Notes under the pieces: model-generated
Told to the model about the DNA's origin: nothing
What the model saw: the letters and a program-made list of their open reading frames with translations, nothing else
Databases searched by the model: none
Shown: positions 21,094 to 36,848 of the stretch, in pieces
Layout: each line of letters begins with the position of its first letter
How positions within the stretch are numbered: the stretch's first letter is position 1
Made by a program: the position numbers and the translations under genes
Source: an uncultured Opitutia bacterium
Lineage (GTDB): Bacteria; Verrucomicrobiota; Verrucomicrobiia; Opitutales; Opitutaceae
Direction: 5' to 3'
Assembly (NCBI GenBank): GCA_903830425.1
Contig: CAIKTR010000167.1
Span: forward strand, 1 to 38,635
DNA: 38,635 bases

Positions 21094-22077
21094 ATGACCA
21101 CACCCGCCGCCCCCGGCCGCCCGGCCACCCACCAGCCCGCCCTCGCCGTGTTCGCGGCGCTGAGCAGCGCGTGGGTCTTCCTGCTGGTGGTGCTGGGCGC
21201 GTTCACGACCAGCATTGGGGCGGGCATGGTGTTTGCGGACTGGCCCCTGTCCAACGGCTCCCTCAACCCCCGCGGCTGGCTGACGGACCTCGCGATGTTC
21301 GCCGAGCATTCGCACCGCCTGAGCGCGGGGGTGATGGGCACCCTCACCCTGGTGCTGGCGGGCTGGATCGTGCGGACCGAGCCGCGGGCCTGGCTGCGCC
21401 GCCTGGCCCTCGCGGCCGTCGGGCTGGTGCTGCTGCAGGCGCTGGTGGGCGGCCTGCGCGTGCTGCTCGACCACCTGCAGGTGCCGATGGTCGACACCAG
21501 CGTGGGCCGGCTGTTTGCCATGCTCCATGCGGTGCTGGCGCAGCTCTTCGTCTGCGCGCTGATCGCCGTGGCGGCCGCCTGCTCGCGGTCCTGGATTAAG
21601 GGGGGAGCGACCGCGGTCGGGCCGGCGGTGCGCCGCCTCGGGCTGGGGTGCTGCGCGCTGCTGTTCCTGCAGCTGGCAATCGCGGCGGTGATGCGCCACA
21701 GCTTTGCCGGGCTGGCGATCCCGACCTTTCCCGCCTCCAATTTCGAGGGCGGCCTGCTGCCCGCCGTCTGGAACTTCCGGATCGGGATCCATTTCGCGCA
21801 CCGGCTCATGGCGGTCGTGCTCTGCGGCGCGCTGCCGTGGTTTGTCTTCACCCTCCGCGGCGACCGCGGCGCGACCACCGCGATGCGCCTCGGCGCCAGC
21901 GGACTGCTGTTCCTGCTGGTAGGGCAGATCCTGCTCGGCGCCCAGATCATCTGGACCTACCGCGCCGCCTACGCCACGACCAGCCACGTGCTGGTCGGCG
22001 CGCTCACGCTCGCCACGACCTTCTGGCTGACCTGGCAGTCGCACCGCGACGGGCTGGAGACGCCCCCCGCCGCATGA
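21094..22077 (+). CDS. ctaA: Heme A synthase (COX15/CtaA)
   Basis: Inner-membrane enzyme that oxidises the heme O methyl group to the formyl of heme A for aa3/caa3 oxidases. The 327-residue protein has about eight transmembrane helices in two pseudo-repeats, each with a pair of histidines: EHSHRLSAG (His74 with Glu71 nearby) and MLHAVLAQ (His145), then HFAHRLMAV (His236) and TTSHVLVGA (His298). The start ATG at 21094 (MTTPAAPGRP) is chosen; an earlier ATG at 21007 would place 29 unrelated residues across the divergent promoter region. The stop overlaps the ctaB start (ATGA), so ctaA-ctaB-DUF420 form a coupled operon. Confidence 0.93.
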   Translation: MTTPAAPGRPATHQPALAVFAALSSAWVFLLVVLGAFTTSIGAGMVFADWPLSNGSLNPRGWLTDLAMFAEHSHRLSAGVMGTLTLVLAGWIVRTEPRAWLRRLALAAVGLVLLQALVGGLRVLLDHLQVPMVDTSVGRLFAMLHAVLAQLFVCALIAVAAACSRSWIKGGATAVGPAVRRLGLGCCALLFLQLAIAAVMRHSFAGLAIPTFPASNFEGGLLPAVWNFRIGIHFAHRLMAVVLCGALPWFVFTLRGDRGATTAMRLGASGLLFLLVGQILLGAQIIWTYRAAYATTSHVLVGALTLATTFWLTWQSHRDGLETPPAA

Positions 22078-22964
22078 ACCCCGATCCCCTCGTGGCGCCG
22101 CCGAAGCTGGGCGACTATGTCGAGCTGACGAAGCCGCGGCTCAGCCTGCTGTCGGTGCTGACCGCGCTGGTCGGGTATTATGCGTCGCGCCCGGAGCCCG
22201 ATGCCTGGAAGCTGGGGACGGTCCTGCTCGGCACCTCGCTGGCGGCCGGCGGGGTCGCCTCGCTGAACCAGTGGATGGAACGCGACACGGATGCGCAGAT
22301 GAAACGGACGGCGGACCGGCCGATCCCGGCGGGGAAGGTGCCGGACGGCTCGGCCTTCGTGCTGGGCATGCTGATGTGCATCGCCGCGCTGTTCCTGCTG
22401 TTCGCCCGGGTGAACCCGCTGGCGGCGCTCTTCACGCTGCTCACGATCCTCTCCTACCTGGGCTGGTACACGCCGGCGAAGCGGTGGTCGCGGTGGTCCA
22501 CGGAAATCGGCGCCCTCGCGGGGGCCTTTCCCCCGCTGATCGGCTGGGCGGCGGGCGAGGGCCGCGTGACCGCGCTCGGCTGGATTCTCTTCGGCCTGCT
22601 GTTTTTCTGGCAGGTGCCGCATTTCATGGCGGTGGCCTGGACCTACCGGCGGGACTATTCCGCGGTGCATTTCCCGATGCTGCCCGTGCTCGACGCCTCC
22701 GGCGTCTGGGTGGCCCGCTGGTCGTTCCTGAACACGCTGCTGCTGGTGGGCGTGAGCGTGCTGCCGACGGTGCTCGGGCTGGCCAGCCTCTATTACGCGG
22801 CCGCGGCCGCGGCCGCCGGCGCGTGGTTCCTCTGGCGCGCGGCGCGCTTTCTGCGGCCGGCCGGCCGCGACGCCGCGGCCCGGCAGCTCTTCCTCGCTTC
22901 CATCGGCTACCTGCCACTGGTGCTCATCGCCCTGGTGACGGACCGGCTGGTTTTCGTCCCATGA
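22074..22964 (+). CDS. ctaB: Protoheme IX farnesyltransferase (heme O synthase)
   Basis: UbiA-family prenyltransferase that adds farnesyl to protoheme to make heme O, the substrate of CtaA. The 296-residue product has about eight to nine membrane helices. The two Asp-rich prenyl-diphosphate/Mg2+ regions are visible: NQWMERDTDAQMKRTADRP (from residue 65) and YTPAKRWSRWSTEIGALAGA. FWQVPHFMAVAWTYRRDY is a heme O synthase signature absent from ubiquinone and menaquinone UbiA enzymes. It overlaps ctaA by four bases upstream and the DUF420 gene by four bases downstream. The open frame upstream of 22074 is the out-of-frame part of ctaA. Confidence 0.95.
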   Translation: MNPDPLVAPPKLGDYVELTKPRLSLLSVLTALVGYYASRPEPDAWKLGTVLLGTSLAAGGVASLNQWMERDTDAQMKRTADRPIPAGKVPDGSAFVLGMLMCIAALFLLFARVNPLAALFTLLTILSYLGWYTPAKRWSRWSTEIGALAGAFPPLIGWAAGEGRVTALGWILFGLLFFWQVPHFMAVAWTYRRDYSAVHFPMLPVLDASGVWVARWSFLNTLLLVGVSVLPTVLGLASLYYAAAAAAAGAWFLWRAARFLRPAGRDAAARQLFLASIGYLPLVLIALVTDRLVFVP

Positions 22965-23395
22965 CCCTGCACGACCTCCCCGCCCTCAACGCCTCCCTGA
23001 ACGCCCTCGCCACCGGACTGATCACGGCGGGCTTCATCCTGATCAAGACCGGCCGCCGGGAGGCGCACCGGAAGGCCATGACGGCCGCCATGGCGGTCTC
23101 AGCCGTTTTCCTTGTGAGCTACGTGACGCACAAGGTGCTGATGCACGGCGTGCACACCCCGTTTGGCGGCACGGGGTTCATCCGCCCGGTGTATTACACG
23201 ATGCTCCTGTCGCACATCGTGCTGGCGATCAGCATCGCCTACCTCGTGCCGCGGACCTTCCTGTTCGCGCTGCAAGGCGACCTCGTGCGCCACCGGGCGT
23301 GGGCCCGGTGGACCTTCCCGATCTGGTACTACGTGTCGGTCACCGGGGTGCTCGTCTACTGCTTCCTCTACCAGTGGTGGCCGGCGGCGGCCTGA
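22961..23395 (+). CDS. DUF420 membrane protein (CtaM-like)
   Basis: A 144-residue inner-membrane protein with four predicted helices (about 11-30, 41-62, 82-102, 119-138). Conserved features of DUF420 are HRKAMTAAMAVSAVFLVSYVTHK, a YYTMLLSHIVLAI segment with His, and RHRAWARWTFPIWYYVSVTGVLVY. Several membrane histidines resemble heme- or metal-handling positions. DUF420 proteins recur in heme A/cytochrome oxidase loci, and the related CtaM is needed for aa3 oxidase maturation in some Gram-positive bacteria. The start overlaps the ctaB stop (ATGA), so it is translated with the heme A pathway. The biochemical role is not established. Confidence 0.85.
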   Translation: MTLHDLPALNASLNALATGLITAGFILIKTGRREAHRKAMTAAMAVSAVFLVSYVTHKVLMHGVHTPFGGTGFIRPVYYTMLLSHIVLAISIAYLVPRTFLFALQGDLVRHRAWARWTFPIWYYVSVTGVLVYCFLYQWWPAAA

Positions 23396-23422
23396 CCGGC
23401 CGGGCAGGCGCCACCCGGCCGC

Positions 23423-23449
23423 AAAAAAGCCGGGCCCGCAGGCCCGGCT
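23423..23449 (-). terminator. Intrinsic terminator of the blue copper protein gene
   Basis: On the minus strand, GCCGGGCC-TGCG-GGCCCGGC forms a perfect 8-bp stem (9 with an extra A-T pair), followed directly by TTTTTT. It lies about 30 bases after the stop of the cupredoxin gene. On the plus strand there is no T-run, so it is directed to the leftward transcript. It is the clearest intrinsic terminator in the window. Confidence 0.85.
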
Positions 23450-23478
23450 GGAGGAAAACTCAGGGGCAGGCCCGCGGG

Positions 23479-23967
23479 TTACTGCACGATCAGCACACCC
23501 TTCATCCCCACCTGGAAATGGGCGGGGAAGCTGCAGAGGAACGGGTACTGGCCGGGGGTCGACGGGACGGTGAACGTCACCTCGCCCGACTTGCGGGGCC
23601 CGAGCAGTTCAATGTGCGCCAGCACCTGGCCCGCCAGCGCGGCGGGTAAATATTCGGTCTCCTTGGCGAGGGTCGCGGCCTTGGCGTAGGCTTCCAAATC
23701 GGAACCGGCCTTGAGGAGGATCCAATTGTGGCCCATGACCTCCTTCGGCTGGGTGCCGAGGTTGGTCAGGACAACCGTGATTTGCTCGCCGGCCTTGGCC
23801 TCGATGGTGGCGAGGCTGTACTTCATGGTGTCGCCGGCCGTGATCTCGATCAGGCGCGGGCCGGCCGGGACGGTGGCGGCCGTGGACGGGGCGGAGGAGT
23901 CCTTCTGACCGCAGCCGGAGGTGGCCAGGGCGATTAGGGCGGTGGTGAGGAGGAGGCGGAGTTTCAT
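23479..23967 (-). CDS. Auracyanin/azurin-like blue copper lipoprotein
   Basis: Type 1 copper protein of 162 residues, exported as a lipoprotein (signal MKLRLLLTTALIALATSGC, Cys19). The copper ligands are His80 (VMGHNWIL), Cys145, His150 and Met155 (PFLCSFPAHFQVGMKG). The Cys-x4-His-x4-Met spacing and the 65-residue gap from the first histidine match auracyanin more exactly than azurin (x4, x3) or plastocyanin (x2, x4). It would carry electrons in the periplasm, plausibly to the caa3 oxidase encoded immediately to the right. It is divergent from coxB and ends at an intrinsic terminator. The ATG at 23965-23967 is required for the signal peptide. Confidence 0.9.
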   Translation of the reverse strand: MKLRLLLTTALIALATSGCGQKDSSAPSTAATVPAGPRLIEITAGDTMKYSLATIEAKAGEQITVVLTNLGTQPKEVMGHNWILLKAGSDLEAYAKAATLAKETEYLPAALAGQVLAHIELLGPRKSGEVTFTVPSTPGQYPFLCSFPAHFQVGMKGVLIVQ

Positions 23968-24174
23968 GGGCGGCGAATATCTGGCGATCGCTCGCCGGAT
24001 GCAACCGGTTCCGCCTGAAAAAAGTGCCGCGTGACCCATCCGGAGCCCGGCCAAGATATGCGCCTAATATGGCAATTTTTGCGGAATAGGGCTTGAAATG
24101 CCGGCGGGTTCCAAAAGTGTTTCTCCTCGGTCCGAATCAGCGGTCCCTCCCTCCCCCTCCTCCCGACTGCCTCC
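23968..24174. promoter_or_regulatory. Divergent region, blue copper gene / caa3 oxidase operon
   Basis: 207 bases between divergent starts. The central part is AT-rich (CCAAGATATGCGCCTAATAT and GGCAATTTTTGCGGAATAGG at about 24051-24090) and includes a TAATAT hexamer at 24065-24070. GCCA..ATAT and ATATGGC form a loose inverted repeat around it. This is the likely promoter zone for the oxidase operon, and possibly for the copper protein. No strong -35 is seen. Confidence 0.4.
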
Positions 24175-25422
24175 ATGCGTTTGAATTCCCTGCTCTCCCC
24201 CCTCCCTGGCTGGGGCCGCGCCGCGCTTGCGCTGGGCGCCACGGCGCTCCTCACGGGCTGCGACCTGAACTTTTGGCGGATGGACGGCCACCAGTCGACG
24301 CTGGTGGTCGACGGACCGGTCGCCCGCAGCCAGCTCGGCGTGTTCTACGTCACCTGCTGGGTGACGTTCTCCATCTTTCTCGTCGTCGGCGGCGTGCTGG
24401 CCTACGCGACGTGGAAGTTTCGGGCCCGGACGGCCAGCGAGGAGCAGGCCGTGCCGGCGGAGCAGGGCCATGGCAACCCGCTGATTGAGCTGGGCCTGAT
24501 CGGCGCGTCCGTGCTGGCCCTGGTGATCATCGCCATCCCGACCCTCCGGGCCATCTGGTACACGGCGGACGTGCCGGTCGCCGACAAGGCCAATGCCTAT
24601 GAGGTAAACGCCACCGGGCTCCAGTGGTGGTTCCGCTTCGAGTATCCGGCCGAGCAGATCCCGGGCAGCGGCCCGCTGCTCACCAGCAACGAGCTGGTGA
24701 TTCCGGCCGGCCGGCCGGTGCGGATCAACCTGCGCGCGGCGGACGTGATTCACAGTTTCTGGATTCCGAAGCTGGCGGGCAAGGTCGACATGATCCCGAA
24801 CCGCGGGAACTCCCTGTGGCTGCAGGCGGATGCGCCCGGCTACTTCTGGGGCCAGTGCGCCGAGTACTGCGGCGACTCGCACGCCGTGATGCGCTTCCGG
24901 GTGATCGCCCTCGGGCCGCGGGAATTCAACGACTGGGTCAACCGGCAGCTGGCGCCGGCCCGCACCGTGGCCCCCGCCGACGCGGGCGCGTCGCCGGCCC
25001 CGGCCGCCGTGGTGCGCACCACTTGGCAGCGCAACGAGAAGGGCTGGACGGAGCAGTTTGAGCGGGACCCGCTCGCCGCGTGGCGCGCCCACCAGCGGCC
25101 GGAGCAGGCCGAGTCCCCCGCCCTGATTGCCCAGGGTCGCGCCCTGTTCCAGTCGAAGACCTGCTTCACCTGCCACGTGGTCCGCGGCCAGATGGCGGGC
25201 GGCAGCAGCGCCTATCCCGACCTGACCCACCTCGGCTCCCGCACGACGCTCGCGGCCGGCCTGCTGGAGAACAACACCGAGCAGCTGGCCCGCTGGATCG
25301 CCCATCCGGATCAGGTCAAGCCCGGCAACAAGATGTATGCCCTCGGGTATCTCCCGAACAACATCCGGCTCACCGCCGGGGACGTCGCCGCCCTCACCGC
25401 CTATCTGCAAAGCCTGAAATAA
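24175..25422 (+). CDS. coxB: Cytochrome c oxidase subunit II with fused cytochrome c (caa3 type)
   Basis: Electron-entry subunit of the terminal oxidase, 415 residues. A lipoprotein-type signal (ALLTGC, Cys29) precedes two transmembrane helices (about 57-80 and 104-126) and the cupredoxin CuA domain. CuA ligands are His193 (VIHSFW), Cys228, Glu230, Cys232 and His236 with Met239 (GQCAEYCGDSHAVM). A linker (about 260-310) leads to a C-terminal cytochrome c domain with CFTCH (Cys330, Cys333, His334) and a probable Met387 ligand (KMYALGYL). This makes the enzyme caa3-type, dependent on the ccsA/resB system encoded 8 kb away. coxA begins seven bases after the stop. Confidence 0.95.
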   Translation: MRLNSLLSPLPGWGRAALALGATALLTGCDLNFWRMDGHQSTLVVDGPVARSQLGVFYVTCWVTFSIFLVVGGVLAYATWKFRARTASEEQAVPAEQGHGNPLIELGLIGASVLALVIIAIPTLRAIWYTADVPVADKANAYEVNATGLQWWFRFEYPAEQIPGSGPLLTSNELVIPAGRPVRINLRAADVIHSFWIPKLAGKVDMIPNRGNSLWLQADAPGYFWGQCAEYCGDSHAVMRFRVIALGPREFNDWVNRQLAPARTVAPADAGASPAPAAVVRTTWQRNEKGWTEQFERDPLAAWRAHQRPEQAESPALIAQGRALFQSKTCFTCHVVRGQMAGGSSAYPDLTHLGSRTTLAAGLLENNTEQLARWIAHPDQVKPGNKMYALGYLPNNIRLTAGDVAALTAYLQSLK

Positions 25423-25428
25423 TCCCCC

Positions 25429-27363
25429 ATGGACGCCACGGTTCACTCCCCCCACCCGGCCGCCGCCCGGTCCCTGCTCTTCTGGCGCCCGACCGCGCCG
25501 ACGGGTCTCGCCGGCTGGCTGACCACGGTCGACCACAAGAAGATCGGCTTCCTCTACGGCCTGTTTGCGCTGGCCTTCCTGCTGGTCGGCGGCAGCGAGG
25601 CCCTGATGATCCGGCTGCAGCTGATGGTGCCGAACAACACGGTGCTGACGGCGCAGCAGTACAACACCATGTTCACGATGCACGGCACGACGATGATCTT
25701 CCTCGCCGTGATGCCGCTGGGCGCCGCGTTCTTCAACATCATCATGCCGCTGCAGATCGGGGCGCGCGACGTGGCCTTCCCCCGGCTGAACGCCTTCTCG
25801 CTGTGGACCTTCGTGGCCGGCGCGATCATCATCAATGTCGGCTGGTTCCTCCCCGACGGGCCGCCCAACGCCAGCTGGGTCGGTTATGCGCCGCTCACCT
25901 CCAAGCTCTACAGCCCGACCCACGCGACGGACTTCTGGGTGCTCGGGCTCCAGATGCTCGGAGTGGCCTCGATCGCCGCGGCGCTGAACTTCATCGTCAC
26001 GATCATCAACCTCCGCGCGCCCGGCATGACCATGATGCGGCTGCCGGTCTTCACCTGGATGACGCTGATCACCTCCTTCCTGATCATCCTCTCCTTCCCG
26101 GCGATCACGATCGCGCTGGTGGAGGTCATGATGGACCGCCAGTTCGGCACGAACTTCTTCGAGGTCTCGAACGGCGGCATGCCGATCCTGTGGCAGCACC
26201 TGTTCTGGATCTTCGGCCACCCGGAGGTCTACATCCTGATCCTGCCGGCGATGGGCATCATCTCGGAGATCCTGCCGACGTTCTCGCGCAAGGCGCTCTT
26301 CGGCTACCCGATCGTGGTCTTCTCCGGCGCCTGCATCGGCTTCCTCGGGTTCACCGTCTGGAGCCACCACATGTTCACCACCGGGATGGGCACGGTGGCG
26401 ACGGCCGCCTTCTCGCTCGCGACCATGGCGATCGCGGTGCCGACCGGCGTGAAGATCTTCAACTGGATCGGCACGCTCTGGGGCGGGCACCTGAAGATGC
26501 GCACGCCGATGCTCTTCGCCCTCGGCTTCATCTGGATGTTCATGATCGGCGGCTTCTCCGGCGTGATGCACGCGGCCGCCCCGGCGGACGCCCAGCAGCA
26601 GGACAGCTACTTCGTCATCGCCCACTTCCACTACGTGCTGATCGGGGGCTCGATCTTCGCGCTGCTCGCCGGCATCCAGTACTGGTTCCCCCTGATTGTC
26701 GGCCGCCAGGTCAGCGACGACTGGGGCCAGCGGTCCTTCTGGGTCATCTTCGCCGGCTTCAACGTGACGTTCTCCCCGATGCATTTCCTCGGGCTGAACG
26801 GCATGCCCCGCCGCACCTTCACCTACGACGGCAACATGGGCTGGAACACCGCCAACTACGTCTCGACGATCGGCGCCTTCATCCTGGGCCTCGGCATCGC
26901 GCTCTATTTTGTGGTGATCATCCACGCGTATTTTCGGGGCCGGCCGGCCGGGCGCGACGTCTGGGACGGACGGACCCTGGAGTGGTCGCTGCCCAATCCG
27001 CCGCCGGAGTACAACTTCCGGGTCATCCCGACCGTGCACGCCCGCGACGCCTTCTGGTATGAGAAGCAGCACCCGGAGGAGGTCGCGCGGGAGGCCTCCG
27101 CCCACGCCCAGGATGAAGCGGCCCACGGCGGCATCCACATGCCGTTCCCGTCCATCTATCCCTTCGTGGCCAGTGTCGGGGTGCTGATCGGGGCGTTTGG
27201 CGCCTGCTATCACCACCTGCCCGGGTCGCTCCTCGGCGGCGGCGTGCTCCTCGCCGGCATCTACCTCTGGTCGATGGAAGGTGCCGAAGGGTACCATCTC
27301 CACCTGGATGCGGCCGGTCAGCCGATCGCGGACCCGTCCGCGGACCCGTCCGCCAAGCCCTAA
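25429..27363 (+). CDS. coxA: Cytochrome c oxidase subunit I (caa3 type)
   Basis: Catalytic subunit of 644 residues holding heme a and the heme a3-CuB centre. Ligands line up with classical enzymes: His85 (FTMHGTTM) and His401 for heme a, His399 for heme a3 (AHFHYVL), and His264, His313 and His314 for CuB. Tyr268 in GHPEVYILIL is the cross-linked tyrosine. The GHPEVY form and YxxG helix indicate an A-type oxygen-reducing oxidase. About 100 extra C-terminal residues add two more helices (about 578-620), as in Bacillus-type CtaD. The tail contains a tandem 12-base repeat (27328-27351) encoding ADPS repeats. It is followed by coxC after 13 bases. Confidence 0.97.
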   Translation: MDATVHSPHPAAARSLLFWRPTAPTGLAGWLTTVDHKKIGFLYGLFALAFLLVGGSEALMIRLQLMVPNNTVLTAQQYNTMFTMHGTTMIFLAVMPLGAAFFNIIMPLQIGARDVAFPRLNAFSLWTFVAGAIIINVGWFLPDGPPNASWVGYAPLTSKLYSPTHATDFWVLGLQMLGVASIAAALNFIVTIINLRAPGMTMMRLPVFTWMTLITSFLIILSFPAITIALVEVMMDRQFGTNFFEVSNGGMPILWQHLFWIFGHPEVYILILPAMGIISEILPTFSRKALFGYPIVVFSGACIGFLGFTVWSHHMFTTGMGTVATAAFSLATMAIAVPTGVKIFNWIGTLWGGHLKMRTPMLFALGFIWMFMIGGFSGVMHAAAPADAQQQDSYFVIAHFHYVLIGGSIFALLAGIQYWFPLIVGRQVSDDWGQRSFWVIFAGFNVTFSPMHFLGLNGMPRRTFTYDGNMGWNTANYVSTIGAFILGLGIALYFVVIIHAYFRGRPAGRDVWDGRTLEWSLPNPPPEYNFRVIPTVHARDAFWYEKQHPEEVAREASAHAQDEAAHGGIHMPFPSIYPFVASVGVLIGAFGACYHHLPGSLLGGGVLLAGIYLWSMEGAEGYHLHLDAAGQPIADPSADPSAKP

Positions 27364-27376
27364 CCCCCCTGTTTCC

Positions 27377-28222
27377 ATGAGCAGCACTGCCGCCACCGGC
27401 GCCCTCGATCACCACCACGATCACACGACCCGCACGGGCATCCCGAACAAGAAACTCCTCATGTGGGCGTTTCTGGCCTCGGACTGCATGTTCTTCGGGT
27501 CGCTGATTTCCACCCACCTGATCTACCGGCTGCACCCGCCCCCGGGCAATCCCTCGCCCCGGGACGTGTTTGACATCCCGCTCACCTCCTTCTCGACGTT
27601 CATCCTGCTGATGTCGTCGCTGATGATGGCGCTGGCGGTGAACGCGATCCAGAAGGGCAATCTCCGGAGCATGCGCTTCGCGCTGCTCACGACGATTTTC
27701 TTCGGTGCGACGTTCCTCGGCTGCCAGGTGTTCGAGTTCACCCACTTCGTGAGTGAAAAGCACCTGACGATCACCAACAGCATCCTCGGCACGACCTTTT
27801 ACACGCTGACCGGCACGCACGGCACGCACGTGGCGATCGGCGTGCTCTGGCTGATCCTGATGTATGTGCGGTCGTTCAAGCCCGCCGACCCCGGCGCGCA
27901 CCGCGGCTGGTTCCTGCGCAACCTCCTGCACGTCGCCGCCGTCACCGGCCTGGTGCTGAGCGCCCTCTTCACCGTGCTGGCCGTGGTCCACACGCTGGAG
28001 ACCGGCGGCACCGCCGCCGCCTTCGCCGGCCAGCATTTCGCCCTGCTCGCCGCCCTGGTCGTGACCACCGGGGCCAGCCTGGTCCTCGCCCGGCCGAGCG
28101 GCCCGGTCGAGTTCGGCCCGGCCCACGCCATCGATGTCGAGTCCATGGGCCTGTACTGGCACTTCGTCGACATCGTGTGGATCGTGATCTTCACCGCCGT
28201 CTACCTGCTCGAATACCTCTGA
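27377..28222 (+). CDS. coxC: Cytochrome c oxidase subunit III
   Basis: Inner-membrane subunit of 281 residues with about seven helices and a His-rich N-terminus (LDHHHDH). Family signatures are KKLLMWAFLASDCMFFGSLI, FEFTHFVSEKHLTI, and LTGTHGTHVAIGVLWLILMY. The C-terminal GLYWHFVDIVWIVIFTAVYL is the strongest subunit III motif. It supports stability and proton uptake by subunit I and carries no metal. The ATG at 27377 follows coxA by 13 bases; the longer open frame overlaps coxA out of frame and is not used. An insertion of about 40 residues before the last helix contains an additional hydrophobic pair (VAAVTGLVLSALFTVLAVVH and FALLAALVVTTGASLVLA). Confidence 0.94.
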   Translation: MSSTAATGALDHHHDHTTRTGIPNKKLLMWAFLASDCMFFGSLISTHLIYRLHPPPGNPSPRDVFDIPLTSFSTFILLMSSLMMALAVNAIQKGNLRSMRFALLTTIFFGATFLGCQVFEFTHFVSEKHLTITNSILGTTFYTLTGTHGTHVAIGVLWLILMYVRSFKPADPGAHRGWFLRNLLHVAAVTGLVLSALFTVLAVVHTLETGGTAAAFAGQHFALLAALVVTTGASLVLARPSGPVEFGPAHAIDVESMGLYWHFVDIVWIVIFTAVYLLEYL

Positions 28223-28229
28223 CCCCACC

Positions 28230-28604
28230 ATGAGCACCCCCGCCGCCTCCACCGTCCCTGCTCCCGTCCCCGCCGCCGGGGAGAACAAGTTCCAGATCTA
28301 CCTGCGGATCGCGATGCTGCTCGCCGTGATCACCGGCGTGGAAATCGCGGTCATCGGCCTGCCCTTCACGCCGTGGCTCCTGATTGGAACGCTGGCCGTG
28401 CTCTCCCTCGTGAAGTTCATGTACGTCATCTTCTGCTTCATGCACCTGCGGTGGGACAAGGTCTTCTGCACCGTCCTGTTTTTTATCGGGCTGGTGATCG
28501 CCGGCGCCACGATGTGGGCGCTGCTCAAGCTGTTTAGCACGCCCGAAAGCATCCCGCTGTCGGTCGCGGTCCAGGCCCTGACCGGCTCCGGGCGACTCGC
28601 CTGA
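28230..28604 (+). CDS. Cytochrome c oxidase subunit IV family protein
   Basis: A 124-residue membrane protein with three helices (about 28-46, 51-71, 79-99). The hallmark of prokaryotic COX4 proteins is visible as VKFMYVIFCFMHLRWDKVF. A Pro/Ala-rich N-terminal tail precedes the first helix. Such subunits stabilise the oxidase and contain no cofactors. It starts seven bases after coxC and is the last structural subunit before ctaG, which follows after 73 bases of GC-rich sequence with weak hairpin potential. The function is assigned from the motif and operon position. Confidence 0.88.
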   Translation: MSTPAASTVPAPVPAAGENKFQIYLRIAMLLAVITGVEIAVIGLPFTPWLLIGTLAVLSLVKFMYVIFCFMHLRWDKVFCTVLFFIGLVIAGATMWALLKLFSTPESIPLSVAVQALTGSGRLA

Positions 28605-28677
28605 GCGGGCCGGCTCCCCCGCCTGGCGGCGGCGGGGAGGAGGGCGCCCCCCATCGGCCGAGGCCGCCGTTTTTCCC

Positions 28678-29463
28678 ATGATCGACTGGACCCACTGGCA
28701 CAACGAACCCTACCTGGTGGGCGGGCTGGTGCTGCTGGGCTGGCTGTGGGCCGTCGCGGCGGGGCCGCTGCGCAGCCGGTGGGCCCCGGGGACGGCCTTT
28801 CCCCGCCGGGCGGCCTGGTGCTTCTACTCCGCGCTGATCCTGTTCTACCTCGCCGTGGGCTCGCCGCTGGACCAGATCGGCGAGCGCTTCCTCTTCAGCG
28901 CGCACATGTTCCAGCACCAGCTGCTCATGTATCCGGTGCCGGTGCTGTTCCTGTGCGGGCTGACCGACTGGATGGTCGACGGGCTGCTCGACCGGCCCGG
29001 GCTCCGCGGACTGCTGCGCCGGCTGCTCAGCCCGCTCGGCTGCGGCACGGTGGCCACGCTCGTGATCGGCGTCTGGCACGTCCCCTCGCTCTATGAATGG
29101 GCCCTGCAGGACAAGGTCGTCCATGTGCTCGAGCATCTCTCCTTTTTCACCGCCTCGGTCGTTTTCTGGTGGCCGCTGCTGAGCCCCTCGCGGGCCTATC
29201 CTCCCACGGGCTACGGCAGCCAGATGCTGTACCTGTTCTGCCTGGAGATCACGATGACCCCCCTGTTCGCGTATGTGACGTTCTCGCCGGACGTGCTCTA
29301 CCCCACCTACGAGTTTGCCCCGCGGCTGGTGGCCGATTTTGGCGCCGGGGAAGACCAGTTGCTGGCCGGGGTGATGATGAAGCTCGTCAGCATGGGGGTC
29401 TCGATCCTGGCCTTCGGCGTCAGCTTCTATCGCTGGAGCAAGACTCACCGCGACAACGGTTAA
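28678..29463 (+). CDS. ctaG: Cytochrome c oxidase assembly protein CtaG (caa3-type)
   Basis: Polytopic membrane protein of 261 residues with about seven helices, matching the CtaG_caa3 family (distinct from the COX11-type CtaG). Conserved segments are FLAVGSPLD-like LAVGSPLDQIGERFLFSAHM followed by FQHQLLMYPVPVLFLCG, GVWHVPSLYEWAL and LEHLSFFTASVVFWWPL. Conserved membrane histidines (AHMFQHQ, WHVP, LEHLSF) suggest a copper-handling site. In Bacillus the homologue is needed for caa3 activity, presumably CuB assembly. It follows the oxidase subunits on the same strand and most likely belongs to their operon. Start at ATG 28678 (MIDWTHWHNEPYL). Confidence 0.92.
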   Translation: MIDWTHWHNEPYLVGGLVLLGWLWAVAAGPLRSRWAPGTAFPRRAAWCFYSALILFYLAVGSPLDQIGERFLFSAHMFQHQLLMYPVPVLFLCGLTDWMVDGLLDRPGLRGLLRRLLSPLGCGTVATLVIGVWHVPSLYEWALQDKVVHVLEHLSFFTASVVFWWPLLSPSRAYPPTGYGSQMLYLFCLEITMTPLFAYVTFSPDVLYPTYEFAPRLVADFGAGEDQLLAGVMMKLVSMGVSILAFGVSFYRWSKTHRDNG

Positions 29464-29626
29464 CGCTATATTTTGCCTTCAGTTCGTGATCCGCTCCATG
29501 AGGGGATCCGGGGCGTAGAGCAAGATATGCACAGTCTCTGCCAATCGGAGCGGAGCCAGGTCCGGGCGGGGTTGCTAGAGTCTGTCACCGCAATCCACCC
29601 CCCCTTTGATCGCCACCCCCGACGCC
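29464..29626. other. Intergenic region between ctaG and the 49-residue ORF
   Basis: 163 bases containing no gene I can support. The first 10-15 bases are AT-rich (CGCTATATTTTGCC). GATCC and GGATC flank an 11-base centre at about 29489-29509, a weak inverted repeat. A promoter for the small ORF and hemN could lie here, but no hexamer pair stands out. A short overlapping frame reads as low-complexity translation and is not called. Confidence 0.35.
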
Positions 29627-29776
29627 ATGAACCTCCTTCCCCTCCTTCTTACCGCCAGCGTCTGCCTCCTGTTCTCCCTCGCCGTGTATTTCCTGCGCGA
29701 GCGCCTGCAGCAGTCCGGGCGTAGTCCGGTTTCTCCGGCGGCGGTAAATGATCTTCCGTTTGATCGTGCGGCCTGA
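29627..29776 (+). CDS. Small membrane peptide upstream of hemN (CcoS-like size and position)
   Basis: ATG at 29627 opens a 49-codon frame ending TGA at 29774-29776. The product begins MNLLPLLLTASVCLLFSLAV and continues YFLRERLQQS, giving one N-terminal transmembrane helix, a basic stop-transfer segment and a short polar tail ending LPFDRAA. Size, topology and position directly before hemN recall CcoS/FixS, which maturates cbb3 oxidases and is often near hemN and fnr. The diagnostic SGQFDDL motif is absent, so the family call is withheld. Its stop codon overlaps the 5' arm of a hairpin that ends just before the hemN start, so it may be translationally coupled to hemN. Confidence 0.5.
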   Translation: MNLLPLLLTASVCLLFSLAVYFLRERLQQSGRSPVSPAAVNDLPFDRAA

Positions 29777-29810
29777 ATAGGCTGAGTGCAGCCTATTCGT
29801 CCGTGATCAA
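29760..29810 (+). promoter_or_regulatory. Hairpin leader overlapping hemN start codon
   Basis: A perfect 9-bp stem, GAATAGGCT (29775-29783) with AGCCTATTC (29790-29798), encloses a GAGTGC loop. It is nested inside TTGATC (29760-29765) and GATCAA (29805-29810), a further complementary pair overlapping the hemN GTG codon (29803-29805). No Shine-Dalgarno sequence or T-run is visible. The stem lies between the stop of the 49-residue ORF and the hemN start, fitting translational coupling or structure-gated initiation. The TTGAT/ATCAA words also resemble separated FNR half-sites, but the spacing is wrong for one FNR box. Confidence 0.55.
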
Positions 29811-31173
29811 CGTCAACCTCGACCTCGTCCGCAAATACGACATCTCCGCCCCCCGCTACACCTCCTATCCAACGGCGGTGGAGTTTCGGGACTTTGCGTC
29901 ACCGGCGCCCTTGCTGGCGCACCTTGACCGGGCCAACCAGGACGCGAGCCTGCCGCTCTCGCTCTATTTCCACCTGCCGTTCTGCGAGACGCTGTGCTGG
30001 TTCTGCGGCTGCACCACGGTCATCACGCTGAACCGCCAGTCGTCGGACACCTACCTCGACTACCTGGAGAAGGAGATCGCGCTGCTGGCGCCGCGGGTGC
30101 ACCGCGGGCGGCGCGTGGTCCAGCTCCACTACGGCGGCGGCACCCCGACGTTTTTCCAGCCGCCGCAGCTGGCGCGGCTCGCCGCGCTCATCCGCCAGAA
30201 CTTCGTGCTCGATCCCGAGGCGGAGCTGAGCGTCGAGGTCGATCCCCGCCGGCTGTCGCACGCGCAGGTGGTCGCGCTCCGCGAGAGCGGGTTCACCCGC
30301 GCCTCGCTCGGGGTGCAGGACTTCAACCCGCAGGTGCAGGAGGCGGTCCACCGCATCCAGCCGCGCGCCATGACGGAGCAGGCGATCAACTGGCTCCGCG
30401 CCGAGGGGTTCACCTCGCTCAATCTCGACCTGATCTACGGCCTGCCCTACCAGACGGTGCCCTCGTTCACCGACACGCTGGAGCAGGTGCTGGAGCTCAA
30501 CCCCGACCGGCTGGCGGTCTTCAGCTACGCCCACGTGCCGTGGATGAAGCCCGCGCAGAAGATCCTCGAGCGGGAGTCCGCCCTGCCCTCGCCCGAGACC
30601 AAGCTGGCGATGCTCAAGCTCATCACCGAGACCCTGACCAGCCGGGGCTACGTCTACATCGGCATGGACCATTTTGCCAAGGAGACCGACGAGCTGGCGG
30701 TGGCGCAGGCCGCGCGCACGCTCCAGCGCAACTTCCAGGGCTACAGCACGCGGGCCGGGGTGGAGATCCTCGCGTTCGGCATCTCCGCCATTTCCCAGAC
30801 CCCGCACAGCTACCGGCAGAACCACAAGACGCTGGAGCCGTACTACGCCGCGCTCGACCGCGGCGAGGTGCCCGCCCTGCGCGGGCGGGAGCTGACCGAG
30901 GAGGATGCCCGCCGGCGCGAGCTCATCATGCGCGTCATGTGCCACCTGCAGCTCGACTACGCGGCGCTCTCGCGCGAGTTCGGCTATGATTTCGCCGCGC
31001 GCTACGCCACGGAGCTGGCGCGCCTGCGGCCGCTGGCGGACGACGGCCTCGTCGAGCTCACGGCGGAGGGGCTCCGCGTGACGGAGCTGGGCCGGCTGTT
31101 TCTGCGCAACATCGCCGTGTGCTTCGACGCCTACTACGCGCCGGAGGCCAAGCGGCATTCCCGCACCGTTTAA
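29803..31173 (+). CDS. hemN: Oxygen-independent coproporphyrinogen III oxidase
   Basis: Radical SAM enzyme converting coproporphyrinogen III to protoporphyrinogen IX without oxygen. The 456-residue length and the N-terminal NLDLVRKYDISAPRYTSYPT are those of true HemN rather than HemW. The cluster cysteines are Cys61, Cys65 and Cys68 in FCETLCWFCGC, followed by HYGGGTPTF and GVQDFNPQVQEAVHRIQP. The C-terminal HemN domain covers roughly 370-450. The GTG at 29803 is effectively forced: an in-frame stop lies at 29761, no ATG or TTG intervenes, and the conserved N-terminus begins at once. A hairpin sits immediately before it. hemG follows after 12 bases. Confidence 0.95.
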   Translation: MINVNLDLVRKYDISAPRYTSYPTAVEFRDFASPAPLLAHLDRANQDASLPLSLYFHLPFCETLCWFCGCTTVITLNRQSSDTYLDYLEKEIALLAPRVHRGRRVVQLHYGGGTPTFFQPPQLARLAALIRQNFVLDPEAELSVEVDPRRLSHAQVVALRESGFTRASLGVQDFNPQVQEAVHRIQPRAMTEQAINWLRAEGFTSLNLDLIYGLPYQTVPSFTDTLEQVLELNPDRLAVFSYAHVPWMKPAQKILERESALPSPETKLAMLKLITETLTSRGYVYIGMDHFAKETDELAVAQAARTLQRNFQGYSTRAGVEILAFGISAISQTPHSYRQNHKTLEPYYAALDRGEVPALRGRELTEEDARRRELIMRVMCHLQLDYAALSREFGYDFAARYATELARLRPLADDGLVELTAEGLRVTELGRLFLRNIAVCFDAYYAPEAKRHSRTV

Positions 31174-31185
31174 CCCCCCGCCGCC

Positions 31186-32550
31186 ATGCCCCCGACCAGC
31201 CCGAGACTTCCGGTCGCCGTCATCGGCGGCGGCCTGACCGGGCTCACGGCGGCCTGGCAGCTGCATCGCGCCGGCGTGCCCGTGGTGGTGTTCGAGGCCG
31301 CCGCGCTGCCGGGAGGGGTCATCGCCTCGACCCGGGACGGCGCGTGGCTTTGGGAGTCGGGGCCCAACACCCTGCTGGAGGGTTCCGCGGACGTCGCGGC
31401 CTTCGTGGACGCGGTGGGGCTCGGCGGCCGCCGCTGCTACGCGGCGGACTCCGCCAACAACCGCTACGTGGTCCGGGACGCCCAGCTGGTGGCGATGCCG
31501 ACCTCGCCGCTGGCCTTCGTGCGCACGCGGCTGTTTTCGTGGCGGGCCAAGCTCGGGCTGGTCGGCGAGCTGTGGCGCGCCCGTGCGCCGGCCGACGCCG
31601 AGGAGAGCGTGGCGGATTTCGTCGAGCGCCGGCTCGGCCGGGAGTTCCTCGACTATGCCATCAACCCGTTCGTGGGGGGCGTCTACGCGGGTGATCCGCG
31701 GCGGCTCTCCGTGCGCCACGGGTTCCCCAAGCTGCACGCCCTCGAGCAGGAGCACGGCTCGCTGCTGCGCGGGGCGTTCCGGCGCCGCAACACCAGCGGC
31801 GGGCCCAAGGGCCGCATCTTTTCGTTCCCCGAGGGCCTGGCGGAGCTGCCCCGCGCGCTCGCGGCCTCGCTCGGCGGGGCCGTGCGGTATGCGACGCGGG
31901 TGCAGGCCATCCGGCGCACCGCCGGCGGCTGGACGATCGAGTCCGGCGGCCCGGCCGGCGCCGAGTCATTTTCCGCCGTGCTCTGCGCCCTGCCGGCCGA
32001 CGCCCTGGCGCAGCTGCGGTTCGAGGGCGTGCCCGGGGCCGAGCGCCTCGCGGAACTGCAGGCGATCGAGCAGCCCCCCGTGGTCTCGGTCTTCACCGGG
32101 TACCGGCGGGAGGACGTCGCCCACCCGCTGGACGGCTTCGGGCTGCTGATGCCCGAGGTGGAGCGCCGGCGCATCCTCGGGGTCCTGTTTTCCAGCACGC
32201 TGTTCCCCGGCCGCGCGCCGGAGGGGCATGTCGCGCTCTCCACCTTCGTGGGCGGCGTGCGTTCGCCGGAGCTCGCCCGGCTCGACGACGCCGGGCTCCG
32301 GCAGCTGGTGCGCGAGGAGCTGGGGGCGCTGCTGGGCGTCCGCGGCGAGCCCGTGTACTGCCACGTGCAGCGCTGGCCCCGCGCGATCCCGCAATACACG
32401 CTGGGCTATGAGCGGTTCAAGGCGATCTTCACCGGCCTCGAGGCCGCAGCGCCCGGCCTGCATTTTGGCGGCAACGCCCGGGACGGCATCTCCCTCGCCA
32501 ACTGCATCGAGTCCGGCCGGCGACTGGCGCGGACGCAGACGGGCGCCTGA
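31186..32550 (+). CDS. hemG: Protoporphyrinogen oxidase (HemY/PPOX type)
   Basis: FAD-dependent oxidase forming protoporphyrin IX, the step after HemN. The 454-residue protein has the N-terminal dinucleotide fold AVIGGGLTGLTAAWQLHRAG (about 11-30) with the acidic FEA after the second strand. The PPOX hallmark segments are ESGPNTLLEG, FVGGVYAGDPRRLSVRHGFPKL and EQEHGSLLRG, and the C-terminal FAD motif is LHFGGNARDGISLANCIESG. This is the oxygen-dependent flavoprotein type (HemY, called HemG in some nomenclatures), not the E. coli menaquinone-dependent HemG. It lies 12 bases after hemN, so an oxygen-independent and an oxygen-using heme step share a transcript. It converges with ccsA. Confidence 0.93.
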   Translation: MPPTSPRLPVAVIGGGLTGLTAAWQLHRAGVPVVVFEAAALPGGVIASTRDGAWLWESGPNTLLEGSADVAAFVDAVGLGGRRCYAADSANNRYVVRDAQLVAMPTSPLAFVRTRLFSWRAKLGLVGELWRARAPADAEESVADFVERRLGREFLDYAINPFVGGVYAGDPRRLSVRHGFPKLHALEQEHGSLLRGAFRRRNTSGGPKGRIFSFPEGLAELPRALAASLGGAVRYATRVQAIRRTAGGWTIESGGPAGAESFSAVLCALPADALAQLRFEGVPGAERLAELQAIEQPPVVSVFTGYRREDVAHPLDGFGLLMPEVERRRILGVLFSSTLFPGRAPEGHVALSTFVGGVRSPELARLDDAGLRQLVREELGALLGVRGEPVYCHVQRWPRAIPQYTLGYERFKAIFTGLEAAAPGLHFGGNARDGISLANCIESGRRLARTQTGA

Positions 32551-32674: not shown

Positions 32675-34528
<1,854 letters not shown>

Positions 34529-34556: not shown

Positions 34557-35717
34557 TCAGGCCGTGGCGGAGCGGCGCTTGGCGAAGAACGCGGTGAGGT
34601 GGAGGCCGAACTGGAGCAGCAGCCCGAGCGTCATGACGGCGCACGCGATGTAGGGGATCAGCCAGCTGGGGTTGCGCACGACCTGGAGCACCGTGGTGGT
34701 GTCGTTGTTCTCAAAGCCGGCCTGGTAGAACGTGAGGCCGGCGTAGCGCAGCGGGTTGTTCATGTAGATCAGCACCTCGCGGTCGTCCCGGCCGTCCGGC
34801 GTGTTGAGGCGGATGCGGCTGGAGAAGTTCTTCGGGATGTCGGTGCCGGCGTAGCGGTCGTGGCTGAACTTCAGCAGCGTGAGCGAGAAGGGCTTGTAGT
34901 GCCGGGCGAACCGCAGGGCCATCTTGTAGGTGCGGCCGGCGAAGGCGAAGGCCTGCGGTTCCTCCAGCAGGGGCGAGACTAGCCAGGTGCCGATCGGGCC
35001 GTCGGGGCCGATCAGCTCGACGAAGGCGCTCGGGAGGTTGCGCTCATCCGCCTTGTAGGTGAGCGGCTTGAGGGTGGCGAGGATCTGCGGGCCGACGCCC
35101 TGGGTGGCGGGCGCCGCCGGGTCGGCCGCGGCGTTGGGCGCGCGCATCTGGAGCGTGGAGTTGGGCAGGAAGGTCTTGACCGCGACCCGGAACGGCAGGC
35201 GGGGATGCTGCACGGTCTCCAGGCGGGCGAGGGGCCGCTCGGGGATCGAGACCACCTGGTCGGCCTTGGGGTCGGTCGTGTCCGTGATGGCCAGCTCGAT
35301 GTTGCGGAAGCTCTCCGAGTAATTCCGGGTCTGCCCCTGGTCGAGCCGCATGTGGTACTCGTCCTGCATGAGGCCGGTGAGCAGCTGGCCAACCAGCAGC
35401 AGTATGAGGCCGGCGTGGGCGAGCCAGATGCCGGCCTTCCGCCAGGTGAAGGCAAAGCGGTACAGGTGTGAACCGAGGAGATTGATGAGCAAAAGCCCGC
35501 CGATGGTGTAGCCACCGGGGAAGATCGCGAGCGAGACCCCGCCCACCTTCCAGAAGACCACGAAGGTGTTGAAGTATTTCTCCTGCACGACCCAGACGCC
35601 GAGGTTCACCTGGTCAAGGGTGGCGGCGAGGACCAGCACGATCGAGAACACGAGCAGCAGGACGGTGAGCTTGAGCGACACCAGGAGGTCGCGGATTTCC
35701 TTGAGGATGGTGGGCAT
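34557..35717 (-). CDS. resB: ResB-like (Ccs1) cytochrome c biogenesis protein
   Basis: Partner of CcsA in system II cytochrome c maturation, 386 residues. Three N-terminal membrane helices (about 12-33, 58-81, 91-112) precede a large periplasmic domain (about 115-345) and a last helix (about 352-376). Family features are the N-terminal DLLVSLKLTVLLLVFSIVLV, WRKAGIWLAHAGLILLLVGQ with a likely heme-relay histidine, and the periplasmic YMNNPLRYAGLTFYQAGFE motif. The protein probably presents the apocytochrome to CcsA. It sits six bases after the duplicated-domain lipoprotein gene and 28 bases before ccsA, making a three-gene minus-strand operon. Confidence 0.92.
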   Translation of the reverse strand: MPTILKEIRDLLVSLKLTVLLLVFSIVLVLAATLDQVNLGVWVVQEKYFNTFVVFWKVGGVSLAIFPGGYTIGGLLLINLLGSHLYRFAFTWRKAGIWLAHAGLILLLVGQLLTGLMQDEYHMRLDQGQTRNYSESFRNIELAITDTTDPKADQVVSIPERPLARLETVQHPRLPFRVAVKTFLPNSTLQMRAPNAAADPAAPATQGVGPQILATLKPLTYKADERNLPSAFVELIGPDGPIGTWLVSPLLEEPQAFAFAGRTYKMALRFARHYKPFSLTLLKFSHDRYAGTDIPKNFSSRIRLNTPDGRDDREVLIYMNNPLRYAGLTFYQAGFENNDTTTVLQVVRNPSWLIPYIACAVMTLGLLLQFGLHLTAFFAKRRSATA

Positions 35718-35723
35718 GGTGGT

Positions 35724-36848
35724 TCAGCGGGCCGACAGGGTGTGGACGAAGGCCTCGAAGGCGGGCTTTTCCTGCGCAACGAGCTCCACGGGACCCGTGA
35801 GCTTGAAGAACCAGGTGGCGCCCTCGTAGGGGACAATGGCGCCGAGCAGGCGGGCCGGCGAGCCGGCCGCGCCGCCGGTGAAATCGACCAGGGTGACCGA
35901 CAGGCCGTGGGCCGAGAAACGCGTGACCGCGGCGGCCGCGTCTGCGGCGGTCAGCGGCGGGAGCTGCAGCTGGTTGCGCCAGCGGTTGAGGTTCGCCACC
36001 TCGCCGCCGACGTCGCCCGGAAAGGCCGTCACGGAGAGGTCGCCCACCGTGCCCTTCCCACCGGGGATGGCGTAGGTCGCCTTGCGCATGGCGGCCGCCG
36101 GCCGGCTTTCCCAATGCGCCGGGGCGGTCCAGGTGAGGCCCGGGCCCTCGGCCTTGATCACCTCGGTGTTGGCCATGTCGGCGGAGGCCGGGGCGGCCGG
36201 CACCGCGGCCGTCGTCCCGTGCGCGGCGCCCAGCGCCGCGGTGGCGGCGTCCGCCTTCAGGGTCTGGAGCAGGGCGAGAAACGCGGGCTTTTCCTTCGCC
36301 ACGACGGCGTCGGGCCCGATGAGCTTGAAGAACCAGGTGGCGCCGCCGGCGGGGACGAACGCCCCGAGCATGCGCGCGGGCTTGTCGGTCGTGCCGCCCA
36401 GGAGGTCCACGACCCCCACCGTCAGGTCGCCCACGGTAAGGCGCTGGACCGCCGCCGGGAGTTCCGCCTCGGCGATCGGGGCGAGCTGGAGCTGGCCGCG
36501 CCACCGGTTGAGGTTGGCGAGTTCGCCGCCCACGTCGCCTGGAAAGGCCGTCACCGCCAGTTCCGCACCCTCGCCGACCACGAAGGTGGCCTTGCGCACG
36601 CCCGACGCCCCCTTGTTCTGCCAGTGCGACGGGGCCGTCCAGGTCAGTCCGGGGCCATCGGCCTTGGCAACGGCCGTGCCGGCCATGTTATCCGCGCCGG
36701 CCATCCCGGGGTGCGGCGCGGCGGTCGCGGCGGCGGGAAGGGCCACGTCGTTCTCCTTGGGGATGGAATAAACGGCGACTTGGGAGTCGCGACAGGCGCC
36801 CAACAGGAGCGGGAGCGCAAGGAGGAGGCTAAGACGGGAATGGCGCAT
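35724..36848 (-). CDS. Lipoprotein with tandemly duplicated domain (unknown function)
   Basis: A 374-residue predicted lipoprotein (signal MRHSRLSLLLALPLLLGAC, Cys19). Two copies of one domain of about 140 residues occupy 61-200 and 231-374, joined by an Ala-rich linker. Both carry GPGLTWTAPxHW, RKATxxx, LxVTAFPGDVGGExANLNRW followed by RxQLQL, then a GATWFFKLxGP motif and KPAFxAxxxTL at the end. The copies are about 60% identical by eye. I know no function for this domain. Single-domain proteins with a PGDxGG..N.NRWR motif seem to me familiar from Planctomycetes and Verrucomicrobia, but this is recollection. It precedes resB by six bases, so it is probably linked to cytochrome c maturation. 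Confidence 0.85.
   Translation of the reverse strand: MRHSRLSLLLALPLLLGACRDSQVAVYSIPKENDVALPAAATAAPHPGMAGADNMAGTAVAKADGPGLTWTAPSHWQNKGASGVRKATFVVGEGAELAVTAFPGDVGGELANLNRWRGQLQLAPIAEAELPAAVQRLTVGDLTVGVVDLLGGTTDKPARMLGAFVPAGGATWFFKLIGPDAVVAKEKPAFLALLQTLKADAATAALGAAHGTTAAVPAAPASADMANTEVIKAEGPGLTWTAPAHWESRPAAAMRKATYAIPGGKGTVGDLSVTAFPGDVGGEVANLNRWRNQLQLPPLTAADAAAAVTRFSAHGLSVTLVDFTGGAAGSPARLLGAIVPYEGATWFFKLTGPVELVAQEKPAFEAFVHTLSAR

Follow-up and report, generated by a model that had tools for sequence, protein, structure and literature searches.

A lipoprotein with two predicted PsbP-type domains encoded upstream of resB and ccsA: a candidate accessory subunit of the System II cytochrome c synthase

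Introduction

System II of cytochrome c maturation comprises ResB, CcsA, CcdA/DsbD, and ResA/CcsX, the last of which is a thiol oxidoreductase with a thioredoxin fold and a CXXC motif. The component table of one review names CcsA, CcsB, DsbD, and CcsX for bacteria (PMC5526843), and section 10 of another review suggests, as a topic for study, a possible role of the outer beta cap in controlling the access of substrate or the release of product (PMC10663686). How System II receives the apocytochrome outside the membrane is the step on which the protein described here may bear.

Known proteins with the fold reported below attach to other proteins or to membrane complexes. According to PMC4754418, CyanoP associates loosely with photosystem II, and the PsbP relatives PPL1 and PPL2 are required for photosystem repair and NDH accumulation. 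The mycobacterial protein LpqN is presented in PMC7458404 as an accessory factor for the membrane transporters MmpL3/MmpL11, and a title cited there calls it a lipoprotein. Eag proteins, which serve type VI secretion effectors, are chaperones stabilizing transmembrane domains, according to an excerpt of PMC12881460. In the open-licence literature, we found no text joining PsbP, cytochrome c biogenesis, and lipoprotein, and none joining ResB, CcsA, and Verrucomicrobia; texts joining PsbP and CcsA all concerned photosynthetic organisms, judging by their titles. A paper on the System II of anammox bacteria does not use the terms operon, upstream, gene cluster, or unknown function in its main text, where "hypothetical" occurs once, about a pathway.

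Here, we describe a lipoprotein gene in a stretch of 38,635 nucleotides from an uncultured Opitutia bacterium (contig CAIKTR010000167.1), hereafter the window. On balance, although with considerable reserve, we think it probable that the protein is an accessory subunit of the System II (ResB–CcsA) cytochrome c synthase that binds protein and occurs mainly in Verrucomicrobiota and Planctomycetota.

Results

The gene lies on the minus strand at 35724–36848, with its ATG at 36848 and its stop codon at 35724–35726, and encodes 374 amino acids. The preliminary description had reported this frame without its strand; the frame is real, being open, carrying a lipobox, and having homologues in the same operon position. 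Residues 1–19 (36792–36848, minus strand) form a signal peptide, a hydrophobic stretch ending in the lipobox LGAC (residues 16–19), and C19 is the sole cysteine of the protein. A lipobox after a signal peptide is the mark of bacterial lipoproteins, and lipidation is predicted accordingly. A short motif, YSIPKE (residues 27–32; 36753–36770, minus strand), follows, in which Y27 was invariant and K31 and E32 were nearly invariant among 12 aligned sequences including that of the window.

The fold of the domain, described below, is already known; its family is unnamed in both Pfam and NCBIfam. The whole protein matched no Pfam family at E 1 (the PsbP family profile included), no NCBIfam family, and no PDB sequence. 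When 32 related domains were scanned singly against Pfam, only three weak single-member matches were returned (BMC, TCAD9, and PKD_6). Four matches from a profile search of the PDB were weak (best E 0.19) and included YfeX and dye-type peroxidases; we treated all four as chance.

Six bases (35718–35723) separate the lipoprotein stop codon from the resB ATG at 35717, and ccsA comes next, as had been proposed and as the coordinates and Pfam matches bear out. The resB gene (CcsB type; 34557–35717, minus strand; 386 amino acids) matched Pfam ResB at 4.9e-18 and, with phmmer, 7s9y at 2.5e-11; we take 7s9y to be the structure of Helicobacter hepaticus CcsBA. The ccsA gene (32675–34528, minus strand) encodes 617 amino acids, with approximately 300 residues before the core; it matched Cytochrom_C_asm at 1.7e-22 over residues 374–576 and 7s9y at 1.1e-26 over residues 304–603. 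With resB and ccsA side by side, the locus is of the System II type. In the genome that contains the window, the lipoprotein and ResB were each found once, and CcsA gave a single strong match. The simple idea that the lipoprotein compensates for an absent outer domain of CcsA was dropped because the CcsA of the window has these approximately 300 residues before its core; this part scored 3 bits against Helicobacter CcsBA, which is too weak to count. The lipoprotein itself is none of CcsA, CcsB, DsbD, and CcsX. It has no CXXC, its fold matches are of the PsbP type, and it is thus not of the ResA/CcsX type.

Elsewhere in the window, a second, weaker Cytochrom_C_asm match (4616–5176, plus strand; 1.5e-8) lies in a 287-residue frame that, as a guess, may be a HemX-like gene. 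A caa3-type oxidase cluster occupies 21648–32550 and includes UbiA (presumably of the heme O synthase type), DUF420, COX2 with a fused cytochrome c (CFTCH), COX1, COX3, and Caa3_CtaG; after these come HemN and a gene of the amine oxidase family, which we assume to resemble protoporphyrinogen oxidase. The oxidase cluster and ccsA–resB together constitute a heme and cytochrome neighborhood. An azurin-like copper protein gene (PF00127, 2.9e-13) is located inside the cluster on the opposite strand (23479–24054, minus). In some of the 22 relatives' loci examined, multiheme, NapC-type, or class I cytochrome c genes were found near the operon (L003 1159–5396, L068 12343–14508, L076 9973–10809, L111 6128–6460, and L115 2–613).

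No DsbD_TM (CcdA-type) match was detected in the window's genome. Such a match was present in 279 of the phylum's 288 genomes, among them one from the genus of the window, and within the family only the window's genome and one other (G160) had none; as the assembly is 95% complete, the gene probably falls in a gap. The idea that the lipoprotein replaces the thiol-reducing branch was rejected on the same count.

As the preliminary description had claimed, the protein contains two similar copies of one domain. The profile borders of copy 1 (residues 65–197; 36258–36656, minus strand) and copy 2 (residues 235–371; 35736–36146, minus strand) are near those given earlier (61–200 and 231–374). The copies are 59.9% identical over 142 aligned residues, their local alignment scored 437 against a maximum of 64 among 1000 shuffles, and both contain TAFPGDVGGE, an N-L-N-R-W-R core, and GATWFFKL(I/T)GP.

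A single domain (residues 67–199, 31 aligned relatives) was modeled with AlphaFold2 at a mean pLDDT of 97.5 and a pTM of 0.91. In a Foldseek search with this model, 28 chains had E values of 0.001 or better. The top rank (3.9e-6) went to a chain of the plant NDH-PSI supercomplex 9grx, a subunit left unnamed in the search output, which we take to be PsbP-like, followed by cyanobacterial CyanoP (2xb3, 1.7e-5) and BT_1490 of Bacteroides thetaiotaomicron (3hlz, 1.8e-5). Alignment with VIA gave Z scores of 8 or more for 57 of 1000 chains, with a maximum of 11.8, reached by Apa (5zxa; rmsd 2.8, 121 aligned) and LpqN (6e5d; rmsd 3.1, 126 aligned). CyanoP (Z 11.3, rmsd 3.3, 126 aligned), BT_1490 (Z 10.9, rmsd 3.5, 111 aligned), Mog1 (1eq6; Z 10.3, rmsd 3.2, 123 aligned), EagT6 of the EagT6/SciW chaperones (DUF1795) (6xrf_H; Z 10.3, rmsd 3.2, 110 aligned), and DcrB (6e8a_B; Z 9.9, rmsd 3.1, 108 aligned) came close behind. 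The predicted structure thus places the domain in the Mog1/PsbP/DcrB fold superfamily, with the fold shared across the entire domain.

The likeness in fold is accompanied by clear differences. When aligned by structure, PsbP-type chains were 10–18% identical to the domain, and the window domain has no Pfam match. The gene context of the lipoprotein, moreover, is cytochrome c maturation, unlike that of the PsbP family. LpqN is 8% identical and has another partner in another phylum, BT_1490 is 13% identical and its entry is titled merely as a crystal structure, silent on function, and the Eag proteins have no sequence match to the domain. The zinc site of PsbP uses histidine. This site is conserved in PsbP/CyanoP, as stated in an excerpt of PMC4754418, whereas the 185 resB-linked domains of the window type have no conserved histidine. 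A shared fold does not show function.

The full-length model (14 sequences) had a pLDDT of 78.3 and a pTM of 0.47, with two well-formed domains in which the order of strands and helices is the same. Low-confidence stretches lay at residues 17–64 and in the linker between the domains (residues 209–234; 36147–36224, minus strand), where pLDDT is below 50. This layout is consistent with two modules borne on a flexible stalk behind a lipid anchor.

In a profile survey of 288 genomes of the window's phylum, the domain was present in 93 genomes, in 111 genes after neighboring matches were joined. A resB gene lay downstream on the same strand in 94 of the 111 genes (at least 78 by Pfam ResB positions among the matches listed, and 16 of the other 33 by our own ResB profile). 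A second reading of 110 loci, excluding that of the window, counted 93 as linked, with resB at most 500 bases away, and 17 as unlinked; one of the 17 (L046) sits at a contig end, where the neighbor could not be checked. By eye, ResB was counted in 92 of the 93 domain-carrying genomes (the exception being G257) and also in 74 of the 195 genomes without the domain.

A separate scan of named genomes yielded 27 domain loci, with resB next on the same strand in 25. These were mostly from Opitutae, with two labeled Planctomycetota and single MAGs labeled Elusimicrobia, Kuenenia, and Coatesbacteria, labels that may err; three of the genomes (L003, L004, and L012) are shared with the larger survey. 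One linked locus, L024, comes from the MAG labeled as the anammox bacterium Kuenenia, a label that may be wrong. In Planctomycetota (the phylum of L025), the domain was present in 108 of 199 genomes, and resB was next on the same strand in 29 of the 30 best-scoring loci, two of which (L147 and L151) repeat the 27-locus scan; L155 was the exception. The domain was rare in the phyla of L022 (4 of 79 genomes) and L027 (1 of 45), where resB was likewise next on the same strand in all five checkable loci (L177 and L182 repeat the earlier scan, L180 has a partial domain, and a fragment at a contig end, L181, was left uncounted). The preliminary description had proposed coupling to resB–ccsA and had named a lack of recurrent linkage as the finding that would speak against it; the profile searches found the linkage to be recurrent, with the lipoprotein gene adjoining resB–ccsA in most of the carriers examined. 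An envelope protein linked to resB–ccsA is therefore well supported beyond the single window.

The linked and unlinked genes differed in other respects. With the window's own gene left aside, 89 of 93 linked genes passed a simple lipobox rule versus 5 of 17 unlinked ones (L039, also unlinked, looks by eye like a sixth carrier), and a YxxPKE-like pattern soon after the cysteine occurred in 42 of 93 versus 0 of 17. At the unlinked loci scanned, the neighbors included subtilases (L038 and L063), AlgX-like genes (L039 and L046), azurin-like genes (L042 and L054), a DUF1552 gene (L042), a FecR gene (L046), and a TIM-barrel gene (L061). These paralogues bear on a different reading, in which the protein has some other envelope function, such as the handling of copper proteins or surface polymers, and merely shares an operon with resB–ccsA. 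The azurin-like, subtilase, and AlgX-like neighbors of some unlinked paralogues are what this reading would expect, as are two loci in the 27-locus scan (L010 and L013) where the lipoprotein has no adjacent resB. However, both of the latter genomes have ResB elsewhere, 12 of the 17 unlinked genes fail the lipobox rule, and the linkage persists over several phyla and in separately inherited operon copies within one genome; we regard an unrelated envelope function as very improbable.

Two lineages deserve separate mention. In genome family f11, domain relatives without a lipobox are found beside azurin-like genes (L042 5643–6744 and L054 7479–8593), and the same family also has the resB-linked form. 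In lineage f19 (L037, L038, L039, and L059), resB is not close to the domain gene; according to sequence clusters, an AlgX-like gene is nearby in three of the four loci and a subtilase in all four.

The two copies were earlier thought to stem from a fairly recent intragenic duplication, a view that we reject. Among the residues identical between the copies, 55 of 85 shared the codon, close to the 49 that codon usage would predict. A tree of 205 domains, in which many forks are weak, grouped copy 1 of the window with copy 1 of L002, L004, and L005 (support 95) and joined copy 2 to the second copies of these three loci (96); the duplication is therefore older than the split of at least these four species. 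A single older event is at odds with the position of the two copies of the window, which both stand closer to copy 2 than to copy 1 of L105 and L115 (support 83), and the window lineage may thus have duplicated the domain again or converted its copies. The two copies of L083 were each other's nearest relatives (99), and the Planctomycetota copies stood apart; judging from the tree, tandem copies probably arose more than once.

A tree of ResB from 39 loci (midpoint root) placed the window, L002, L004, L005, L100, L105, and L115 in one clade (SH-aLRT 100), all members of which have two-domain lipoproteins. Further operons of the same genomes fell outside this clade, namely L041 (G060), L044 and L074 (G099), L104 (G122), and L114 (G155), and all five encode single-domain lipoproteins. 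Within these four genomes, two-domain and single-domain lipoproteins are thus paired with different ResB types, as far as the sequences tell. Six two-domain loci (L003, L007, L075, L083, L097, and L112) lie outside the clade, and three other genomes (G010, G140, and G160) were uninformative, as both of their operons are single-domain. Domain identity and ResB identity were correlated (0.72 over 741 pairs, which are not independent of one another). Linkage and co-inheritance are evidence of association, not of contact.

This pairing would also be seen if the lipoprotein were a fixed structural subunit that only stabilizes the ResB–CcsA complex and has no contact with substrate, a role for which the requirement of a PsbP relative in NDH complex accumulation offers a parallel (PMC4754418, in part). 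However, linked genes encode from one to about five domains, and their linkers are predicted to be flexible. Among the 93 linked genes surveyed, 75 had one domain, 14 had two, and 4 had more, the counts above two resting on fragmentary profile matches. The varying domain number and the flexible linkers fit a tethered binding module better, and we consider a fixed subunit unlikely.

The lipoprotein is not needed wherever ResB occurs, as 74 of the 288 genomes have ResB and no domain, and this idea was rejected. At 20 hand-chosen ResB loci, one per genome from these 74, no domain was found at E 0.1. The ResB frames were shorter than 330 residues in 13 of the 20, and L185 had a fused frame of approximately 900. 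Scores were 16–137 bits in 19 of the 20 loci and 215 in L201, whose ResB and CcsA scores resemble linked ones, versus 175–638 in the 93 linked loci; this gap is partly built in because our ResB and CcsA profiles came from loci found via the lipoprotein. The only domain-less genome of the window's family (G080) had no match to the window's ResB, although Pfam ResB matched it. These comparisons hint that the lipoprotein belongs with one ResB–CcsA subtype, and this is to be taken as a hint only because the profiles lean toward linked loci.

In the numbering of domain copy 2 as aligned, P9, W12, R21, N52, R55, W56, Q59, K115, and G118 were 95–100% conserved in the 185 linked domains. They were also 80–100% conserved in the 20 unlinked domains and are therefore not, by themselves, a marker of contact with ResB. 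N54 (85% linked versus 40% unlinked) and R57 (82% versus 35%) of the first helix were more common in linked domains, from which we infer that they may face the partner.

The preliminary description had also suggested heme handling, for which we found no positive evidence. No histidine, cysteine, or tyrosine column reached one-third of the 185 linked domains, the most frequent being tyrosine in 56 and cysteine in 48, and their absence as conserved residues disfavors heme binding. Were the protein a periplasmic heme carrier, its modules would take the heme leaving the CcsA channel and hold it or pass it on, like CcmE in System I. The operon position beside a heme channel, the heme biosynthesis and oxidase genes also present in the window, and the 76% conservation of Met20 in linked domains would suit such a carrier. 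However, Met20 is even more common (90%) in unlinked domains, and CcmE-type chaperones have a conserved heme-binding histidine, which the linked domains do not, while System II heme is described as passing via the CcsB–CcsA channel to an external active site (both from excerpts of PMC10663686). A heme carrier thus seems distinctly improbable.

Discussion

Sequence or prediction shows the lipobox, the pair of domains and how they fold, the recurrence of the operon, and the pairing of lipoprotein form with ResB type; from these we infer the membrane location, the binding partner, and the effect on cytochrome maturation. The protein-binding members of the fold, together with the operon and the co-inheritance, point to protein binding in System II, where the lipoprotein may handle apocytochromes or support ResB–CcsA.

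An accessory subunit of this kind might work as follows. After export, the N-terminal cysteine would be lipidated, anchoring the protein on the outer side of the membrane, and the flexible stalk would present two rigid PsbP-fold modules. The binding partner of these modules would be a protein, whether apocytochrome c in its unfolded state or the outer domains of ResB/CcsA, and the modules would thereby deliver or hold the substrate at the site of heme attachment, or support the assembly of the ResB–CcsA complex. The frequency of ResB without the lipoprotein (74 of 195 domain-less genomes) and the 17 of 111 genes that are unlinked count against an accessory role. The review table cited above argues against a separate chaperone in that it gives the chaperoning of apocytochromes in bacterial System II to CcsB (PMC5526843).

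More tentatively, and with the balance of probability somewhat against it, PVC bacteria may have a cytochrome c synthase of three parts, one of which, a tethered lipoprotein with the PsbP fold, selects apocytochromes or presents them to the CcsA active site, with the number of modules set per ResB type. Such a synthase would give System II a counterpart to those parts of System I that handle apocytochromes. A role of the lipoprotein in System II would, if true, also bring cytochrome maturation to the jobs of the PsbP fold. A conserved third gene in the operon, unnamed in Pfam and NCBIfam, would provide a direct genetic handle on the receipt of apocytochrome outside the membrane, in phyla with many environmental species.
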